Assembly (NCBI GenBank): GCA_002929055.1
Contig: PERY01000010.1
Coordinates: 1-64,000, forward strand
Length of the DNA stretch: 64,000 nt
From: Methylocystis sp.
GTDB taxonomy: Bacteria; Pseudomonadota; Alphaproteobacteria; Rhizobiales; Beijerinckiaceae
Reading direction: 5' to 3'
Of this stretch, positions 27,335 to 45,168 are shown one piece after another. A model generated the notes under the pieces. That model was not told the origin of the DNA. It worked only from the letters and a program-made list of their open reading frames with translations, and ran no database searches. The position numbers were made by a program, and so were the translations under genes. Each line of letters opens with the position of its first letter. Positions within the stretch are counted from its first letter, which is position 1.

Positions 27335-27428
27335 GGGAGGTTGGCGTTGGACGTTTCACTCGCCAACCGGGTCAGGTCCGGAAGGAAGCAGCCCTAACGA
27401 GCTTGAGCGGGTCTCCGTCCAGCCTCCT
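27335..27428 (+). ncRNA. ffs: Signal recognition particle RNA, small bacterial type (4.5S)
   Basis: The apical core GGTCAGGTCCGGAAGGAAGC with the downstream AGC is unmistakable for SRP RNA, with the GGAA tetraloop and the asymmetric internal loop that bind Ffh. The ends GGGAGGTTGG (27335) and CCAGCCTCCT (to 27428) pair to close the helix. Length is about 94 bases, the usual bacterial small form. It lies just upstream of dnaX, its common neighbour in alphaproteobacteria. The ends are estimated from pairing. Confidence 0.95.
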
Positions 27429-27504
27429 ACCTTGCTGACAGGCGCGGAGCGCAGAGCATTGGCCGCTCTGCCCGCGCCTTTCGCTTTTCTGGCGCGGAAA
27501 CGGG

Positions 27505-36409: not shown

Positions 36410-36848
36410 TTGTTCTCCTGAGAGCCCCGGTCGGGGCGGCGCCGGCATGGGTTGGCGTTGCGGATCGGTTTCCGGCGATCGGAACGTCTCCCGGCGCTTG
36501 AGCGCTCATAAAGACGAAAAGTTCGTAAACGAACTGGCCGGCGCGGCCCAAAGGTCGGAAACCAGGTGACGACGCGGCGGATCAAAGACCCGACGCGCGG
36601 CTGCTATCTACCAGCCGGCCGCCCTTGCGGCAAGCGCCGCCGGCGAGACTTTGTTGCTGCGACGCGGAAGATGCGCTATTGCATTGCACAATAGTTCTGT
36701 TGTCGGACCCCGGCTCCACTCGACTCCCGGCAGGCTTCGTTCGCCATATGACCAGAATCCTGCTAGCGAAAGCGGCGCCCGGTGATAATCTTATAGGCTA
36801 TAGCGCGACCTCCGGGCGAATCGTCGCGCCTTTGGGAGCCACCAGGAA
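36410..36848. other. Divergent intergenic region between rpsA and the bufferin-type operon
   Basis: About 440 bases that must carry the rpsA leader and promoter and the promoter of the peptide operon. A GATAAT/TTATAG/CTATAG run (36783-36804) is AT-rich against its surroundings and 45-65 bases before the first peptide ATG, a likely -10 region, but no clear -35 or metal-regulator box can be named. Confidence 0.45.
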
Positions 36849-37100
36849 ATGAAGGCAAGCGCCATATCCGGAGCCGCCATCGCCGCTGCTGCGATCTCTC
36901 TCGCCCTCGCAGCCAGCCCCGCCGAAGCCAAGCACAAAGCGCATCGCGCGCCTGCAGCGGAAAAGCACAAATGCGGCGGCAAGAACGGCTGCCCCGCCAA
37001 GTCTGAAGAAAACGCCAGGGCTGAGGAAAAAACCAAGTCTGAAGACAAGGCGGGGGCGACGGCCGCGCCCGCGGCCGACAAGCCGGCGGAGGCCAGGTAA
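36849..37100 (+). CDS. Bufferin-like precursor peptide 1
   Basis: An 83-residue exported peptide. The signal peptide (SGAAIAAAAISLALAASPAEA) ends near residue 27, as in periplasmic bufferins. The mature part begins with His/Lys-rich KHKAHRAPAAEKHK and has only two Cys, Cys42 and Cys48, in KCGGKNGC. That C-G-G-K-x-x-C core is shared with the next two peptides. The C-terminal half is Cys-free, made of Glu, Lys and Ala. AGGA precedes ATG at 36849. It heads the operon whose DUF692 enzyme probably modifies these Cys. Metal binding is inferred. Confidence 0.75.
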   Translation: MKASAISGAAIAAAAISLALAASPAEAKHKAHRAPAAEKHKCGGKNGCPAKSEENARAEEKTKSEDKAGATAAPAADKPAEAR

Positions 37101-37149
37101 CTCTTCCGGCGCGCCGGTCTCAGCCGCTCTGAGCAGGCGCGCCTCCTTC

Positions 37150-37165
37150 CGCCCCTCAGGGGGCT
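37150..37165 (+). promoter_or_regulatory. Small hairpin ahead of precursor 2
   Basis: GCCCC-TCAG-GGGGC, a 5-bp GC hairpin 18 bases before ATG, followed by the ribosome site CAGGAGAG. A near-identical element precedes precursor 3, so hairpin, ribosome site and gene were duplicated as a unit. Confidence 0.5.
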
Positions 37166-37182
37166 TCGTTCAGGAGAGCTAT

Positions 37183-37464
37183 ATGAAGACGAAGATCGTT
37201 TCCGGTTCGGCGCTCGCCGCTGCGGCCATCGGCCTCGCGCTCAGCGGCGCGGCTGTCGCTCCGGCGGCGGCGCATGGGGCGCATGTCTGCAAGATGACGA
37301 AGGGCCAGTGCGGCGGCAAGACCGGCTGCATGACCAAGACCGGCGTCTGCAAGCACAACGTCGGCAAGAGCAAGGCTTCCTGCAAGCATGGCTGCCATCA
37401 CAAGGCCTCCTGCCACCACAGCAAGGGCGCCTGCAACATGAAGAGCAAGTGCCACTCGAAGTGA
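37183..37464 (+). CDS. Bufferin-like precursor peptide 2, nine cysteines
   Basis: A 93-residue exported peptide with a signal peptide (KTKIVSGSALAAAAIGLALSG, cut near residue 30). The mature 60 residues hold nine Cys (36, 43, 49, 56, 67, 71, 77, 84, 90), many His and Lys and no acidic residue. The core QCGGKTGC matches the shared C-G-G-K-x-x-C. Several Cys are spaced by five residues. Bufferins are RiPPs whose Cys are oxidised to thiooxazoles by DUF692 enzymes and bind copper; the assignment rests on export, Cys pattern and the following DUF692/DUF2063 genes. Confidence 0.82.
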   Translation: MKTKIVSGSALAAAAIGLALSGAAVAPAAAHGAHVCKMTKGQCGGKTGCMTKTGVCKHNVGKSKASCKHGCHHKASCHHSKGACNMKSKCHSK

Positions 37465-37493
37465 GTTTCGGCGTCGCGACGAGCCGCGCCGTT

Positions 37494-37510
37494 CGCCCCT
37501 CACGGGGCTC
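37494..37510 (+). promoter_or_regulatory. Small hairpin ahead of precursor 3
   Basis: GCCCC-TCAC-GGGGC with 18 bases to the ATG and the ribosome site AAAGAGGAG between. It matches the element ahead of precursor 2 in stem sequence and spacing. Confidence 0.5.
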
Positions 37511-37526
37511 TAAAGAGGAGAAGCAT

Positions 37527-37754
37527 ATGAAGACGAAGATCGTTTCCGGCTCGGCGCTCGCCGCCGCCGCACTTGCGCTCGCCCTGAACGGCGCCGCTAT
37601 CGCCCCGGCTCACGCCCATGCGTCCGCCAAGCACGCCAAGGGCCATTGCGGCGGCAAGAGCACCTGCCATCACAAGGCCAAGTGCCACCATAAGTCGCAG
37701 TGCCATCATCACAAAGGCGGCTGTAACATGAAGGCCAAGTGCCACAGCAAGTAA
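37527..37754 (+). CDS. Bufferin-like precursor peptide 3, six cysteines
   Basis: A 75-residue exported peptide whose first 16 residues are identical to precursor 2 except at one site (AAAAL for AAAAI). After the signal peptide (cut near residue 30) come HAHASAKHAKGH and six Cys (41, 47, 53, 59, 66, 72), almost all with exact C-x5-C spacing. The linkers are His/Lys-rich. The core is HCGGKSTC and the tail GCNMKAKCHSK parallels precursor 2, so the two arose by duplication. A very strong ribosome site, GAGGAG, precedes ATG at 37527; an upstream open frame is ignored. Likely product: a Cys-ladder metal-binding peptide. Confidence 0.82.
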   Translation: MKTKIVSGSALAAAALALALNGAAIAPAHAHASAKHAKGHCGGKSTCHHKAKCHHKSQCHHHKGGCNMKAKCHSK

Positions 37755-37777
37755 CGCCTGGCTCATAAAAACGCTTG

Positions 37778-37805
37778 GCGCCGGTCCCCGCTCGGGGGCC
37801 GGCGC
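37778..37805 (+). promoter_or_regulatory. Strong hairpin between precursors and maturase
   Basis: GCGCCGGTCCCC / GGGGGCCGGCGC pair over 12 bp (one G-U) around a GCTC loop. No T-run follows, so it is unlikely to be a full terminator. Placed 24 bases after precursor 3 and 25 bases before the DUF692 start, it could lower maturase expression relative to the peptides or stabilise the upstream mRNA. Confidence 0.6.
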
Positions 37806-37830
37806 AAATATCCGCGCAGGAATATTCTTG

Positions 37831-38676
37831 ATGCAGAAGCCCGCGCCGCTCGGCTACGGCCTTGGCCTCCGGCCAATCTACTTCGACGAGATCATGTCGA
37901 CGCGCCCGCCAGTCGACTGGTTCGAAATCATTTCCGAAAATTACATGGTCGAGGGCGGCCGCCCGCTCTCCATGCTGGATGCAATCCGCGCCGATTATCC
38001 GGTCGTCATGCACGGCGTCTCCATGTCGCTCGCTTCGACCGACCCGCTCGACATGGATTATCTCGCGCAGCTCAAGGCGCTGGTCGACCGCGTCGAGCCC
38101 GCCTGGGTGTCCGATCATGTCGCATGGACCGGAGTCCATGGCCTGGCGCTTCACGATCTTCTGCCGATCCCCTACACTTCCGAGTCGCTCGCGCATATCG
38201 TCGAGCGCATCTGCCGCGTTCAGGATTATCTCAAGCGCCAGATCGCGGTCGAGAACGCCTCGACCTATGTGTCCTTCGCCGCCTCGGAGATGAGCGAGCA
38301 GGATTTCGTGCGCGAGATGGCGGAGCGCGCCGATTGCCTGCTGCTGCTCGACGTCAACAACGTCTTCGTCTCGAGCTTCAACCACGGCTTCGATCCCGTC
38401 GCCTTCCTCGACAGCGTGCCGGCGGAGCGCGTCGTGCAGTTCCACATGGCCGGCCACACGGACAAGGGCACCCATCGCGTCGACACGCATGACGAGCCCG
38501 TCTGCGACGAAGTCTGGGCGCTCTACGAACATGCGCGCCGCCGCTGCGGCGACGTCTCCGCGATGATCGAGCGCGACGACAATTTCCCGCCCTTTTCCGA
38601 GCTTCTCGACGAATTGCAGAAGATGCGCGACATCGACGCGCGCATTGCGGCGGAGCGGGCGCTGAGCGCGGCATGA
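37831..38676 (+). CDS. bufB: DUF692 (MNIO) bufferin maturase
   Basis: A 281-residue TIM-barrel-type DUF692 protein with the metal ligands of multinuclear non-heme iron oxidative enzymes. These include His61 (HGVSMSLAS), Asp96-His97 (SDHVAW), Glu141 (VENAS), Asp174 and Asn176 (DVNNV), His205 and His209 (HMAGHT), Asp218, His220 and Glu248 (IERDDNFP). Such enzymes use O2 and iron to convert peptide Cys into thiooxazole-type groups. ATG at 37831 is preferred, with AGGA 10 bases upstream. Stop and start overlap with the next gene (ATGA). The three upstream peptides are the probable substrates. Confidence 0.9.
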   Translation: MQKPAPLGYGLGLRPIYFDEIMSTRPPVDWFEIISENYMVEGGRPLSMLDAIRADYPVVMHGVSMSLASTDPLDMDYLAQLKALVDRVEPAWVSDHVAWTGVHGLALHDLLPIPYTSESLAHIVERICRVQDYLKRQIAVENASTYVSFAASEMSEQDFVREMAERADCLLLLDVNNVFVSSFNHGFDPVAFLDSVPAERVVQFHMAGHTDKGTHRVDTHDEPVCDEVWALYEHARRRCGDVSAMIERDDNFPPFSELLDELQKMRDIDARIAAERALSAA

Positions 38677-39503
38677 AGCTCTCGGATTTCCAGTCTCTGT
38701 TCCAGGCCCGCATTCTTGCCGGGCCAGGGCAGGATGACGCGCCGCTGATCGCGGCCTTGCGGGAATCGCAGCGTGGCGCGGCGCGTGAAGAACTCCTGGC
38801 CGTCTACCAGTCCGGCTATCGCGCCCGGCTGGAGAGCTTCCTTTACGAAGACCATCCGGGCCTGCGCGCCATCATGGGGGACGAAGCCTTCGAGGAGCTG
38901 GTGCGCGAATATGTCGAGACATGTCCGCCGCGCAACCCCAACGCCCGCTGGTATACGACGGGGTTTCCCGATTTCCTGCGCGACCATCCCCAATGGCGCG
39001 GCGCGAAGGACGCGCTTTCGATGGCGGTTTTCGAGCGCGCCATCGTCGACGCCTTCGATGCGCCTGACGCGGCGCCTCTTTCCATCCAGGCGCTGGCTGA
39101 TTTTTCGCCGGAGGAGTCTCCGCGCCTGACTTTCACCTTTCATCCGAGCCTCGTTTTGCTGGAGCTTTCGGCTGGAACCTTCGCCGCCTATGAGGCTGCC
39201 GGCCAGGAGGAGACCGAGGAGGAAAACGCTGCGGAAGAGGCGGGGGCAGCCTCTCCGTCGCTCGCCGCAGGCGGAACCGAGGCGATCGTGGTGTGGCGCT
39301 GCAACGACGAATCCGCCTTTCGCGAGCTTGATCCCGACGAGCATGTCGCGCTCAGCGAAGCCAAAGCGGGGCGGGCCTTCGGCGACATCTGCCAGATGGC
39401 GGCCTTTCAGCAATCCGGCGACATCGAGCCGGAGCGCCTCGCGCAATTTCTCGCGAGCTGGTTCGGGGACGGCATGATTGTCGGGGTTTCCTGCAAGGCA
39501 TGA
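38673..39503 (+). CDS. bufC: DUF2063 (BufC/HvfC-type) maturation partner
   Basis: A 276-residue protein with an N-terminal DUF2063 domain: LSDFQSLFQARIL, VYQSGYRARLESFLYEDHPGLRAIMGDEAFEEL and FPDFLRDHP. A separate C-terminal domain follows a Glu-rich linker at about 180-195. DUF2063 proteins are encoded beside DUF692 enzymes and present the precursor peptide to the oxygenase. Its start overlaps the DUF692 stop (ATGA), so the two are coupled. No DoxX-type bufD follows. Confidence 0.88.
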   Translation: MKLSDFQSLFQARILAGPGQDDAPLIAALRESQRGAAREELLAVYQSGYRARLESFLYEDHPGLRAIMGDEAFEELVREYVETCPPRNPNARWYTTGFPDFLRDHPQWRGAKDALSMAVFERAIVDAFDAPDAAPLSIQALADFSPEESPRLTFTFHPSLVLLELSAGTFAAYEAAGQEETEEENAAEEAGAASPSLAAGGTEAIVVWRCNDESAFRELDPDEHVALSEAKAGRAFGDICQMAAFQQSGDIEPERLAQFLASWFGDGMIVGVSCKA

Positions 39504-40213: not shown

Positions 40214-41353
40214 ATGAGCGAGCGTTCCATTTTCCGTGAAGAGGGGCTGCAGGCGCTGATAGAGGCGCTGAGCCGCCGTGGCTTCCGCGTCATTGGCCCG
40301 ACCATCGGCGACGGCGCCATCATCTACGACGATGTAGAGGCGCTTGGCGATCTGCCGCGCGGCTACACAGACGAGCAGGAAGCCGGCCGCTACAGGCTCG
40401 CGCGACGCGACGACGCCGCGCTCTTTGGCTATGCGGTGGGCCCGCAATCCTGGAAGAGATTTCTCCACCAGCCGCTGCTCCGCCTGTGGCGCGCCGAGCG
40501 AAAGGGGCAGGACGTCATCGTCGAGGCCGAGCCGCCCGCGACCGAAAAGCTCGCCTTCCTCGGCGTGCGCGCCTGCGAACTGCACGCCATCGAGATCCAG
40601 GACCGTGTGCTGATCGGCGGCGACTATGTCGATCCGCATTACGAGTCGAAGCGCGAGGGCGCCTTCATTGTCGCGGTCAATTGCGGCACAGCGGGCGGAA
40701 CATGTTTCTGCGTATCGATGAATACGGGGCCGAGAGCCACGAGGGGTTTCGATCTCGCATTGACGGAATTGACTCTCGAGGGCGGGAACGGCTTTCTCGT
40801 CGAAGTCGGCTCGCCTGCCGGAGCGGAACTTCTGGCCGAACTGCCGAGCCGCCCGGCGTCGCGGGAAGAAATGGACGACGGCGACGCGGTTGTCGCGCGC
40901 ACGGCCGCGTCCATGGGGCGGGCCATGCCAGCGGAGGACATTCACGCGCTTCTCATGCGCAACCTCGACCACGAACGATGGGACGAGGTCGCGCAGCGCT
41001 GCCTCTCCTGCGCCAACTGCACCATGGTTTGCCCCACCTGTTTCTGCACCAGCGTCGAGGACCACAACGACCTCTCCGGCGCCGAATCGTCGCGAACGCG
41101 GCGCTGGGACTCCTGCTTCACCATGGATTACTCCTACATCCACGGAGGCTCAGTCCGGCCGGGCGTCGCATCGCGCTACCGCCAGTGGATGACGCACAAG
41201 CTTTCCACCTGGTTCGACCAATTTGGAACCTCGGGCTGCGTGGGATGCGGGCGTTGCATCACCTGGTGTCCCGTCGGCATCGACATCACCGAAGAGACGC
41301 GGGCGATCAGCGACAGCGAAAAATTGTTGGGAGCGGCAGATGGAAAATCTTGA
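40214..41353 (+). CDS. hyhB: Group 3b [NiFe]-hydrogenase iron-sulfur subunit beta
   Basis: A 379-residue electron-transfer subunit of the HydB/HyhB type. Two ferredoxin-like clusters are visible: C263-x2-C266-x2-C269-x3-C273 with PTCFC (276, 278), and C342-x2-C345-x2-C348-x3-C352. It relays electrons between the hydrogenase dimer and the flavin subunit encoded downstream. In Pyrococcus the homologous complex is soluble sulfhydrogenase I. Its 3' end overlaps the next gene by 14 bases. First gene of a six-gene operon. Confidence 0.9.
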
Positions 41354-41801
41354 ACGCATCCTCGCGGCGCACCCGTTCTTTGCCGGGCTCGACGGCGAAT
41401 TCTGCACGCTCGCCTGCGGCTGCGCGAAGAATGCGCGTTTTGATGCCGGGCAGTTCATCTGCCATGAAGGCGATAGCGCCGACCAGTTTTTCCTCGTTCG
41501 CGAGGGACGTGTCGCCTTGCAGGTGTCGGCGCCCGGCCGCGGCGCTTCGACATTCCTCACGCTCGGTCCCGGCGAGGTTTTCGGCGTCAACTGGCTCGTG
41601 CCGCCCTATCGCTGGACATATGACGCAAAAGCGATTGCGCCGACGCGCGCCATCTCGATGGACGCGGCCTGCCTTCGCAACAAATGCGAGGCGAACCACA
41701 GCCTCGGCTACGACGTGATGAAGCGACTCATGCCTGTGCTCGTCGAGCGGCTGCATACGGCGCGCGTGCAGATGCTCGATCTCTATGGCGCCCGGGGCTG
41801 A
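41340..41801 (+). CDS. Cyclic-nucleotide-binding domain protein in the hydrogenase operon
   Basis: A 153-residue protein that is one Crp-type cNMP-binding beta-roll: [24 protein letters not shown] and [15 protein letters not shown]. The phosphate cassette is degenerate ([17 protein letters not shown] rather than RxA with Glu). A single C-terminal helix follows; there is no helix-turn-helix, so it should not bind DNA. N-terminal Cys are present (TLACGCAKN). It sits between the beta and gamma genes, overlapping hyhB and 2 bases from hyhG, suggesting it binds or tunes the enzyme itself. Confidence 0.85.
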
Positions 41802-41803
41802 CG

Positions 41804-42655
41804 ATGTCCGACGCAGCCTTTGCGACTCTTATGCATGCGCAGCCGATGGTTCCTCAGGTCGCGCATGTGCGCGGGCGCCGCAAAGACACGCCGGACGCCT
41901 GGACGCTCGACCTCGAGTTGGCGAATGGCGCGCGCCTCATCTACGCGCCGGGGCAATTCAACATGCTCACCGCCTTCGGCGTCGGCGAAGCGGCGATCAG
42001 CGTTTCAGGCGACCCCGCCGGAGGGCCGCTCATTCATACAATCCGAGCCGTCGGCCCCGTGTCCCGCGCGCTCACCGCGCTCGAGCCTGGGGATCCGATC
42101 GGCGTTCGCGGTCCCTTCGGCGTCGGCTGGCCGATGGCGCAGGCAGAGGGCAAGGACGTGCTGCTCGTCGCCGGCGGGCTCGGCCTCGCGCCGTTGCGGC
42201 CGGCGCTCTATCGCCTGCTGGGCGAGCGCGCGCGCTTTGGCCGGGTCACGCTGCTGTTCGGCGCGCGCACGCCGGAGGACATCGTCTTTCGCCATGAAGT
42301 CGAGAGTTGGCGCGCGCGGTTCGACATCGACGTCGACGTCACGGTCGACCACGCCGCATCCGAATGGCATGGGCATGTCGGCGTCGTCACTACGCTCATC
42401 TCGCGCGCGACGTTCGATCCGTGCAACGCCCTCGCCATGATCTGCGGGCCGGAAGTGATGATGCGTTTCGTCGCCATGGCGCTGGTGGAGAAGGGCTTCG
42501 GCGAAGACGCGATCTATCTCTCGATGGAGCGCAACATGAAATGCGCCATCGGCCATTGCGGCCATTGCCAGCTCGGCCCCACTTTCATCTGCCGCGACGG
42601 CCCCGTGTTCACCTATGCGCAGCTCAAGCGCTTCCTTGCCATCAAGGAGCTGTGA
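41804..42655 (+). CDS. hyhG: Group 3b hydrogenase flavin/NAD(P)-binding subunit gamma
   Basis: A 283-residue ferredoxin-NADP reductase-like subunit. The FAD part includes YAPGQFNML and AISVSGDP; the NAD(P) part has [18 protein letters not shown] and [11 protein letters not shown]. Near the C-terminus a [2Fe-2S] loop is seen as [17 protein letters not shown] plus the later FICRDGP Cys. It is the NADP(H) site of the bidirectional enzyme. ATG at 41804 is 2 bases past the cNMP gene and the stop is 2 bases before the small subunit. Confidence 0.92.
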
Positions 42656-42657
42656 CG

Positions 42658-43452
42658 ATGGACGCAACCAAGAAGCCCCGTCTGGGCGTCTGGAAATTTG
42701 CTTCCTGCGACGGCTGTCAGTTGAGCCTGCTCGACTGCGAGGACGAATTGCTGGCGATCGCCGGCGCGATCGACATCGCCTATTTTCCCGAGGCGACGCG
42801 CGGCGAGATCAGCGGCGTTTACGATCTTTCGCTGGTGGAAGGTTCCGTCACCACCGCGCATGACGCGGAGCGCATTCTCGACGTGCGCAAGCGCTCCAAA
42901 AAGCTCGTCACCATCGGCGCCTGCGCCACGGCCGGCGGCATACAGGCCTTGCGCAATTTCGCCGATGTGCGCGAATACGCCGCCATCGTCTACGCGCATC
43001 CAGAATATATCCACACGCTTGCGGCCTCCACCGCCATCGCCGAGCATGTGCCGGTCGATTTCGAGTTGCGCGGCTGCCCGATCAACAAGGGGCAACTTGT
43101 CGATGTCGTCGCCGCTTTCCTGGCGGGCCGACGGCCGAACACGCCCGCCCATAGCGTCTGCATCGAATGCAAGCTGAAGGGCAATGTCTGCGTGATGGTC
43201 GCCAGGGCGACGCCGTGCCTCGGCCCCGTCACACACGCCGGCTGCGGCGCGCTGTGCCCGTCGTATGACCGCGGATGCTACGGCTGTTTCGGCCCCAAGG
43301 AGACGCCGAACGCGCCGTCGCTGAGCGTCTGGCTCGCTGGGCTCGGCATGGATGAAAAGGCGCTGGAGCGCGTCTACCGCAGCTTCAACGCCAACGCCGA
43401 ACCTTTCCGCAACGAGAGCGAACGACATGGCGCGCAAGACCATAAAGGTTGA
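42658..43452 (+). CDS. hyhS: Group 3b [NiFe]-hydrogenase small subunit delta
   Basis: A 264-residue small subunit. It opens [23 protein letters not shown] (proximal cluster CxxC, Cys17 and Cys20), with [10 protein letters not shown] and RGCPINKGQ supplying the other proximal ligands. A Cys-rich C-terminal half ([36 protein letters not shown]) holds further [4Fe-4S] clusters. No Tat leader is present, which fits a cytoplasmic group 3 enzyme. It overlaps the large subunit by 26 bases. Confidence 0.93.
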
Positions 43453-44719
43453 CTATCTCGCCCGCGTCGAAGGTGAGGGCGCGTTCAAGGTCGTCGTGCG
43501 CGACGGCGTCGTGCAGAGCGCCGAACTCAATATCTTCGAGCCTCCGCGTTTCTTCGAAGCCTTCATGCGCGGGCGGCATTTCACCGAGACGCCCGATATC
43601 GTCGCCCGCATCTGCGGCATCTGTCCCGTCGCCTATCAGATGAGCGGCGTGCATGCGCTCGAAAATCTTCTCGGCGTCACCGTCGGCGGGCCGCTCCGCG
43701 AATTGCGGCGGCTGCTCTATTGCGGCGAATGGATCGAATCCCACACGCTTCACATCTATATGCTGCATGCGCCTGATTTTCTCGGCTATGACGGCGGGAT
43801 CGACATGGCGCGCGACCACGGCGACAGGGTGAAGCGCGGGCTCCAGCTGAAGAAGACCGGTAACGAGATCCTTCAGTTGCTTGGCGGGCGCGAAATACAT
43901 CCCATCAACGTCCGCGTCGGCGGATTTCACCGCGCGCCGCGCAAGCGTGAATTCAAAGAGCTCGCCGAGAAGCTTAAAGCGGCGCGCGACATCGCGATCG
44001 AGACGGCGCACTGGGTCTCGACGTTTGATTTCCCGCATCGCGAGCGCGACTACACGCTCGTGACGCTGCGGCATCCGGCGGAGTATCCCTTCAACGAAGG
44101 CCGGATCGTCTCCAACCGCGGGCTGGATATTCCAGCCGCGGACTATGACGCGCATTTCGAGGAACTGCATGTCGAACATTCGACGGCGCTTCACTCGCGA
44201 CTCCGCGATAGCGGCGGCGCCTACCTCACCGGACCGCTGGCGCGTTACAATCTGTGCTTCGATCAGTTATCCCCGCTTGCCAGGCAGGTCTCCGACGAGA
44301 TCGGCCTTGGCCGGCAGTGCCGGAATCCCTATCGAAGCATCATGGTCCGTGCGGTCGAAGTCGTTTACGCCTGCGATGAAGCGCTTCGAGTCATGGAATT
44401 TTACGAAGAGCCGGATCGGCCCTATGTCGATGTCGAACCGCGCGCCGGCGTCGGCTATGCGGCGACGGAGGCTCCGCGCGGCATGCTCTATCACCGCTAT
44501 CATCTCGACGAGGCGGGCCTGATCACCGACGCCCAGATCGTGCCGCCGACCTCGCAGAATCAGGCGAGCGTTGAAGAGGATCTCGTGGATTTTGTCGGCA
44601 GCTTTCTAGACCTGCCCGACGAGCAATTACAGCATCGCTGCGAGCTGACCGTGCGCAACTACGATCCTTGCATTTCCTGCGCCACGCATTTCCTGCGCCT
44701 CGACATCGATCGCGCATGA
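43427..44719 (+). CDS. hyhL: Group 3b [NiFe]-hydrogenase large subunit alpha
   Basis: A 430-residue catalytic subunit. The L1 motif [10 protein letters not shown] provides Cys63 and Cys66, and the L2 motif DPCISCATH provides Cys415 and Cys418, together the four Ni ligands. After His421 a nine-residue C-terminal extension remains for cleavage by the maturation protease encoded next. The enzyme interconverts H2 with NADPH in the cytoplasm. ATG at 43427 is chosen from [20 protein letters not shown]. hyp genes for Ni-Fe assembly are outside the window. Confidence 0.95.
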
Positions 44720-45168
44720 GGATCCGCGTCATCGGCGTGGGCAATCTGGACCGGGGCGATGATGGGGCCGGGCGCGCGGTTGCGCGGCGATTGCGCGCGA
44801 CGGAGCTGAAGGGAATTGAAGTCGCCGAACAGGAAGGCGAGGCGACTTCGCTGCTGAACCAATTCGAGGGCGCGGACCTTGTATATCTTGTCGACGCGTG
44901 CCTTTCCGGCGCGCCGGCTGGCGCCATTCATCGTTTCGACGCCGCTGCGGCGCCCTTGCCGGGCAAGATCGCCAATTTCTCGTCGCACGGTTTTGGTCTT
45001 GCCGCAGCGGTGGAACTGGCGCGGACGCTCGGCGCCCTGCCGCCTCGCTGCATCGTCTACGCCATCGAAGGAGAGAACTTTGCGGTGGGCGTCCATCTGT
45101 CCGGCGCCGTTCAGACGGCTGTCGAGACGGTCACCGCCGAGTTGATTTCGCTCATCTCACGACAATAG
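44716..45168 (+). CDS. Hydrogenase maturation protease
   Basis: A 150-residue HyaD/HybD-type endopeptidase. It opens [18 protein letters not shown], with the Glu/Asp-type Ni-sensing residues expected in GNxxxxDDG and in [10 protein letters not shown], and has the [15 protein letters not shown] block of the family. It removes the short C-terminal tail of the large subunit after nickel insertion. ATG at 44716 overlaps the large-subunit stop (ATGA). The operon ends here, convergent with galT only 7 bases away. Confidence 0.9.

Follow-up and report, generated by a model that had tools for sequence, protein, structure and literature searches.

A predicted His-rich, lineage-specific offshoot of Buf2-type precursor peptides encoded beside an MNIO–DUF2063 enzyme pair in Methylocystis

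When short Cys-rich peptides with signal-like N termini are encoded directly upstream of an MNIO (DUF692) enzyme and its DUF2063 partner, are they bufferin precursors even if their cores depart from those of the family? The question is raised by a five-gene array on the plus strand of a 64,000-nucleotide stretch of Methylocystis sp. DNA (contig PERY01000010.1, positions 1 to 64,000, assembly GCA_002929055.1), here called the window; below, L- and G-numbers designate loci and genomes, with G000 the window's assembly and C10 its contig. The array comprises pep1 (36849–37100; 83 amino acids, 2 Cys in the motif KCGGKNGC and an Ala/Lys/Glu-rich tail), pep2 (37183–37464; 93 amino acids, 9 Cys), pep3 (37527–37754; 75 amino acids, 6 Cys), a BufB-type MNIO maturase (37831–38676; ATG start, with an alternative TTG at 37828) and the DUF2063 partner (38673–39503). 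The spacers preceding pep2, pep3 and MNIO measure 82, 62 and 76 bases, and the ends of the two enzyme genes overlap by 4 bases. All three peptides have signal-like N termini (signal peptides were assigned by eye and with a script applying the −3/−1 rule); these N termini, the open reading frames and the coordinates agree with an earlier note on this DNA, made from the sequence, which had placed three such Cys-rich peptides before a DUF692–DUF2063 pair. The array is a real, well-conserved MNIO–PME1 cluster: it has the gene order precursor–MNIO–partner typical of that class, and DUF2063 follows MNIO in 30 of 30 loci (L004–L033).

The precursors appear to be a His-rich, lineage-specific offshoot of the Buf2 type that departs from the family in its cores and not in its enzymes. 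We think it likely that the locus is a Buf2-derived MNIO–PME1 (captophorin/bufferin-type) cluster in which one maturase would produce thiooxazole peptides, some of them His-enriched, for buffering of metal in the periplasm, most probably copper. The genes and their conservation, the family and clade of the maturase, its conserved active-site columns, the fold of the partner and the likeness of the leaders rest on direct results, whereas recognition, modification and its chemistry, export, the metal and the function are all points that we infer by analogy with characterized systems. Beyond the earlier note, our analysis adds that Cys-Lys has almost vanished while Cys-His has become common, that a shared leader ties in pep1, and that two further Buf2 precursors lie elsewhere in the genome.

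The peptide genes carry a signature of constraint. Ratios of nonsynonymous to synonymous substitution (dN/dS) were estimated against orthologues by the Nei-Gojobori method; some are rough, with synonymous distances that exceed 1. Whole-gene values were 0.16 and 0.23 for pep1 (against L004 and L006; core-only 0.18 and 0.19), 0.15 for pep2 (L004; core 0.23), and 0.21, 0.17 and 0.15 for pep3 (L006, L007 and L009; cores 0.27, 0.38 and 0.19), as compared with 0.11 and 0.13 for MNIO and 0.20 and 0.18 for DUF2063; the pep1 pair from L004 and L005 gave 0.36 (core 0.47). By these estimates pep1, pep2 and pep3 are all under purifying selection. Because of these low ratios, and because orthologous peptides lie upstream of MNIO in other Methylocystis loci, the three genes are more than chance open reading frames.

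The two enzymes appear ordinary for the Buf2 type. MNIO scored 368.6 bits against Pfam PF05114 (cut-off 25) and 377.8 bits against the NCBIfam model MNIO_BufB (NF050167; cut-off 310), which places it in the BufB family, and it stayed under the cut-offs for HvfB (277.6 versus 360 bits) and MbnB (75.7 versus 325 bits). Residues H61, H96, E141, D174, N177, H205, D218, H220, E247 and D249, which we take to be the metal and catalytic residues, do not vary in any of the 55 aligned MNIOs, in line with the earlier note's view that the metal ligands of the DUF692 enzyme are intact, and alignment to 3bww supports the same columns. The active-site assignment is also backed by what is reported of N175, D242 and H244 of HvfB (PMC13419390) and of Asp249 of FonB (PMC13097082). 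Next to the catalytic Asp stands D250, conserved as Asp in 54 of the 55 rows, the lone exception being a Buf1-type enzyme with Asn; according to PMC13097082, this position holds Asp in Cys-Lys enzymes (BufB2-type, Asp251) and Phe in Lys-Cys enzymes.

The partner matched Pfam PF09836 at 72.5 bits (cut-off 27.2) and scored 27.2 bits against the HvfC model, short of its cut-off of 142. An AlphaFold2 model built from 32 sequences (mean predicted local distance difference test score 89.5) returned 237 Protein Data Bank (PDB) matches at E ≤ 10, with E ≤ 0.001 reached solely by 8hci_A and 8hi7_A (the TglHI complex) and by 3dee (NGO1945; E 5.5e-6). PMC12452194 describes the last of these as a DUF2063 plus RRE protein, and the fold match predicts an RRE-like part in the partner as well. 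The model thereby leaves the identity of the partner as PME type 1 well supported, and the Pfam and fold matches concur with the coupled DUF2063 partner named in the earlier note.

What sets the locus apart lies in the cores. The His-rich set consisted of 19 peptides (pep2, pep3 and one each from L004–L020) and the canonical set of 86 precursors from L027–L083, each selected because it had three or more Cys-Lys-like motifs, a choice that inflates their Lys share and leaves the His contrast unaffected. The residue following Cys is His in 57 of 119 cases and Lys in 5 of 119 within the His-rich set, versus Lys in 343 of 513 within this Lys-inflated canonical set; His makes up, on average, 20.5% of the mature part in the former set and 0.9% in the latter. 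Peptides of a Methylosinus group (three Methylosinus and one Methylocystaceae metagenome-assembled genome) are intermediate, with Cys-Lys at 6 of 24 positions and a His share of 11.3%. Cys spacings run from 5,5,6,5,13 in canonical peptides (L027, L025) and 6,5,6,9,5 in Methylosinus (L021) to 6,5,6,10,3,5,6,5 in pep2 and 5,5,5,6,5 in pep3, and in L025, L021 and pep2 alike the x6 segment opens with Cys-Met-Thr. Under the −3/−1 rule (with our own weights), a cleavage site leaving an N-terminal His was best in 18 of 22 His-rich peptides and tied for best in three more, as compared with 4 of 75 distinct canonical peptides. We regard predicted mature chains that start with His as a lead.

The tie to Buf2 comes mainly through the leader. 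For a leader profile we used 52 distinct canonical Buf2 leaders (from 84 precursors in 53 of the 55 loci L029–L083, none titled Methylocystis or Methylosinus), and scored it against a background of 130 signal-like N termini, many of them mutually homologous, from which short Cys-bearing open reading frames had been excluded; 5 of the 134 rows supplied received no reported score. Pep1, pep2 and pep3 took ranks 1 to 3 of the 129 scored N termini (13.8, 10.9 and 6.6 bits), and the leader of the genome's own Buf1-type precursor, typed from an internal Met, came in at rank 108 (−2.6 bits). Full-length profile comparisons with canonical Buf2 gave 98.2% for pep2/pep3 and 95.7% for pep1.

The three peptides are best seen, from their similarity, as tandem duplicates. 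Among the DNA repeats of the array (D1, D2 and D4), 132 nt at 77% identity join the leader regions of pep2 and its paralogue pep3, 70 nt at 73% do the same for their C-terminal parts, and each of the three genes has a copy of a 39-nt stretch that surrounds CGGK-x-x-C (pep2 77% and pep3 72% identical to pep1). Profile comparison of pep1 with pep2/pep3 gave 98.1%. A search of the pep2/pep3 profile against PDB sequences found no match at E ≤ 1, and the plasmid collection held no pep2 match.

How far does this peptide type extend? A tree of 55 MNIO rows (the window, 48 of 80 named loci, five further loci of which one duplicates L027, and the Buf1-type enzyme; L160 was excluded) grouped the 19 MNIOs of His-rich loci in a single clade (support 100/99) amid Buf2-linked MNIOs. 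Its sister is formed by L025, L026 and L157, with near-canonical peptides (joint clade 96/81), and the Methylosinus group comes next; the Buf1-type enzyme sits on a very long branch, and the tree is rooted for drawing only. The nearest MNIO loci, L004–L020, are mostly Methylocystis or metagenome-assembled genomes at 84–88% identity. The gene rpsA adjoins MNIO in 17 of 17 of these loci and also in L023 and L025, and had no match beside MNIO in L021, L022, L024 and L026. The pep2/pep3 profile matched 44 of 248 genomes of the wider family sample at E ≤ 0.01 and 32 of 39 genomes of the genus at E ≤ 1e-5, with 28 strong matches (E about 1e-28 or below), four weak ones and seven genomes without a match. 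Three of the weak matches have near-canonical peptides upstream of MNIO (G089, G265 and G266), and the fourth (G215) is an orphan His plus Cys-Lys peptide.

The full triple of pep1, 9-Cys and 6-Cys peptides occurs in two of the 39 genus genomes, G000 and the near-complete G250; since it recurs in the latter, an assembly artefact is unlikely. Besides G250, 9-Cys pep2 orthologues are found in G151 (L004), G177, G247 and G261, each time with pep1; pep1 accompanies the 6-Cys form in G114, G267 and G268, and the 6-Cys form stands alone, by the filter used, in L007–L020 (6-Cys orthologues of pep3 span L006–L020). The L loci and G genomes overlap (e.g. L004/G151, L005/G251 and L006/G267), and these counts are not independent. 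The earlier note had considered three precursors unusual, but they have precedents: apart from G250, L044 carries three canonical Buf2 precursors consecutively, and PMC12452194 already reports tandem precursors, precursors distant from MNIO genes and several precursors per MNIO pair. Two or more Buf2-like precursors were present in 30 of the 55 loci L029–L083 (a loose filter, with unrelated open reading frames discounted by hand), and L038 has two precursors of identical sequence upstream of MNIO. We therefore rejected precursor number as the novelty; what is new is the His-rich core branch, and the count is minor.

In the scheme that we favor, the DUF2063 partner would recognize the shared signal-peptide leader, MNIO would oxidize Cys with the loss of 4 H per residue, 5-thiooxazole being the likeliest product, and the Sec system would export the peptides. 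In the mature forms, often with an N-terminal His by the −3/−1 rule, the imidazoles of His would stand next to thiooxazole sulfur and serve as additional ligands, and the peptides would bind metal in the periplasm, copper most likely. One maturase would serve several substrates: most securely pep2 and pep3, which we expect to be modified because of their linkage to MNIO and their leader, likely pep1, and probably two Buf2 precursors elsewhere in the genome. For the family, PMC13097082, PMC12452194 and PMC13419390 describe an RRE-bearing partner that aids precursor binding, a signal peptide that is seemingly part of the recognition sequence, a diiron MNIO that converts Cys to 5-thiooxazole and an exported product that binds copper.

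Several observations weigh against this reading. The BufA2 model NF050166 (cut-off 60 bits) gave 17.6 bits for pep1, 14.3 for pep3 and no match for pep2; because all lie far below the cut-off, we do not file them as BufA2. The six or twelve Cys typical of BufA2 are found in pep3, but pep1 has two and pep2 nine; among 24 aligned peptide members, 15 match the model at E ≤ 0.01. The bufferin cluster proposed in the earlier note thus stands for its enzyme pair, and the comparison of peptides with bufferin families that it had called for brought none of them to the threshold. The leader score of pep3 barely exceeds the top background N terminus (6.6 versus 6.3 bits), and the cores of pep2/pep3 compared alone match canonical Buf2 weakly (probability 13%, E 0.002). 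Because the full-length match reaches 98% but the core-only match 13%, kinship to Buf2 is, on these comparisons, carried by the leader and weakly shown for the core. The Buf1-type MNIO on contig C29 passes the BufB model as well (369.8 bits), so that a pass cannot discriminate between Buf1 and Buf2 enzymes; the fold match of the partner is moderate (TM score 0.54–0.56 by query length); and the distribution searches ran on profiles made from these peptides and their kin. Finally, Cys-Lys is nearly lost though the enzyme retains the Asp that in models contacts such a Lys. PMC13097082 states that FonBC, a Lys-Cys enzyme, took mostly small residues after Cys and none charged, accepting Ala and, once, a Cys-Tyr substrate, and that BufB2-type enzymes normally meet Cys-Lys. 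Given both preferences, acceptance of Cys-His, Cys-Gly and Cys-Asn is the central question.

The alternative that fares best concerns pep1, which could be a degenerate paralogue or an accessory periplasmic peptide and not a substrate; we rate this as a serious possibility, somewhat short of even. Its two Cys and long low-complexity tail fit such a role, as does its position, pep1 not being next to MNIO in L007–L024 by the filter used. A substrate role is favored by its leader score, the highest of the three, its whole-gene dN/dS of 0.16–0.23, the location of its Cys pair in the stretch common to pep2 and pep3, and the presence of relatives in at least 14 of the 39 genus genomes.

It is also conceivable, though unlikely, that a Buf2 leader became fused to a His/Cys-rich core of other origin, which would make the likeness to bufferins superficial. 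The leader-driven full-length match and weak core match are what such a capture would leave behind; the grading of Cys spacing from canonical peptides via Methylosinus to pep2 and pep3, and the Cys-Met-Thr that L025, L021 and pep2 have in common, speak against it.

Still less probable, in our estimation, is that the His-rich peptides bind metal in the manner of metallothioneins, without modification, and that MNIO mainly serves canonical Buf2 precursors elsewhere. The departures from BufA2 and Cys-Lys described above, the weak match of the cores and the small residues that FonBC mostly needed after Cys agree with this idea, and close MNIO relatives by rpsA (L025 and L157) adjoin the canonical-like peptide type. 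Such precursors do exist in the genome. The G000 assembly (3.0 Mb, 63 contigs, 89.4% complete) has three MNIO and two DUF2063 matches versus five Buf2-family precursors, two of which are canonical and lie on contigs without a matched MNIO: L144 (C13:37523–37732, minus strand), following a gene for a PepSY_TM membrane protein, and L145 (C12:57409–57621, plus strand), with no MNIO match within a few kilobases around either. No second Buf2-type MNIO is among the matches in G000, and one may have been missed at this completeness. However, His-rich peptides stand immediately upstream of MNIO in all 17 loci L004–L020, and they share the leader.

The other two MNIOs of the genome are the Buf1-type enzyme (C29, L002) and one in L003 (C15:9299–13078), which follows a gene for a 311-amino-acid membrane-protein-like product; the latter is perhaps of the TIGR04222 kind and has a sub-threshold DUF2207_C match only. 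The DoxX family PF07681 has two matches in the whole assembly, one with the Buf1-type cluster on C29 and one at C27:17218–17445, a contig with no matched MNIO, and none on C10, which bears out the absence of a DoxX-type bufD stated in the earlier note.

Which metal, then, would the products handle? Methanotrophs are copper-dependent, and methanobactin, the peptide for which they are known, takes up copper and is made by another MNIO. A copper need of this bacterium is likely because pmoC is present (C26:33483–34208), a search of 21 genomes detected pmoA in 9, all among the 12 that belong to the same genus besides G000, and the window has cytochrome oxidase genes. Neither pmoA nor pmoB was found in the G000 assembly, probably an assembly gap, and DUF326 (copper storage) had no match in the genome. 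Just downstream of the cluster the window carries a [NiFe] hydrogenase set (40214–45165: Fe-S subunit, NAD-binding subunit, large subunit and HycI protease). We rejected a link between cluster and hydrogenase, as no hydrogenase match lies beside the cluster in the 30 loci L004–L033 or 13 further regions, within flanks of a few kilobases. The orphan peptide of G215 (L158; C1:1297598–1297810), which is short and rich in His and Cys-Lys, adjoins NicO (nickel transport) and HupE/UreJ genes, which is a hint of some metal besides copper. That the products handle such a metal (nickel or zinc) is very unlikely in our judgement, for all the roughly 20% His of the mature peptides, the nearby hydrogenase set and the setting of L158, given that hydrogenase genes had no match in the flanks covered and that characterized MNIO–PME1 products are generally copper-binding (PMC13097082).

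Set beside known systems, the cluster shares with Buf2 (BufA2/BufB2/BufC2) a BufB-type MNIO with the D-D pair, a DUF2063 partner, the gene order, a predicted signal-peptide leader and a Cys-rich core of partly similar spacing; it differs in the His-rich core nearly devoid of Cys-Lys, the 2/9/6 Cys counts, the scores under the BufA2 cut-off and the lack of a C-terminal GW/GF...C part. The EGKCG oxazolin and fontiphorin systems (HvfABC, FonABC) likewise combine an MNIO and PME1 with a signal-peptide-bearing Cys-rich peptide, whereas the cluster has no EGKCG repeats, has Asp and not Phe after the catalytic Asp, and stays under the HvfB and HvfC cut-offs. The Buf1-type cluster L002 of the same genome has the same peptide–MNIO–DUF2063 order, but it encodes a 4-Cys precursor that we read as DUF2282-like, a DoxX gene, and an MNIO 39% identical to that of the window with Asn after the catalytic Asp. 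Methanobactin systems (MbnABC) are alike in MNIO family and as copper-related methanotroph peptides; the window MNIO is far from MbnB, and the cluster has precursors with predicted signal peptides and a DUF2063 partner instead of MbnC. No His-rich or Methylocystis bufferin was among the matches listed from the open PMC literature, and the portions seen of a Methylosinus trichosporium copper transcriptome (PMC12811070) contain no mention of DUF692, DUF2063, DUF2282 or bufferins.

If the reading is true, a second, His-rich MNIO peptide system by rpsA in Methylocystis would represent the storage or protection side of the methanotroph copper economy. The locus would also offer a natural test of MNIO–PME1 recognition, with one enzyme pair and a shared leader facing cores with 2, 6 and 9 Cys mostly in non-Lys contexts. 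More tentatively, and with more doubt than confidence, we suggest that Methylocystis has evolved a bufferin type of its own, with an N-terminal His and, along the mature chain, His-His pairs in alternation with thiooxazole sulfurs. These would form mixed S/N metal sites (possibly brace-like, for Cu(II) plus Cu(I), or for another metal), and up to five peptides would be processed by one maturase whose Cys-Lys rule has relaxed while the Buf2 catalytic site was kept.

Upstream of the array, an alignment of eight loci (four with pep1 and four without) was conserved mainly close to rpsA and gave no conserved cluster promoter; a promoter scan returned two sites only, both on the minus strand within the MNIO gene. 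The inverted repeat AGTTCGTAAACGAACT at 36520–36535, between rpsA and the cluster, keeps its GTTCG/CGAAC arms in the eight aligned loci while the loops vary, and it probably belongs to rpsA. The RNA-family scan of the window found only the signal recognition particle (SRP) RNA and a tRNA, the former being a bacterial small SRP RNA gene at 27335–27431, and a type VI secretion system Hcp gene lies at 424–891.

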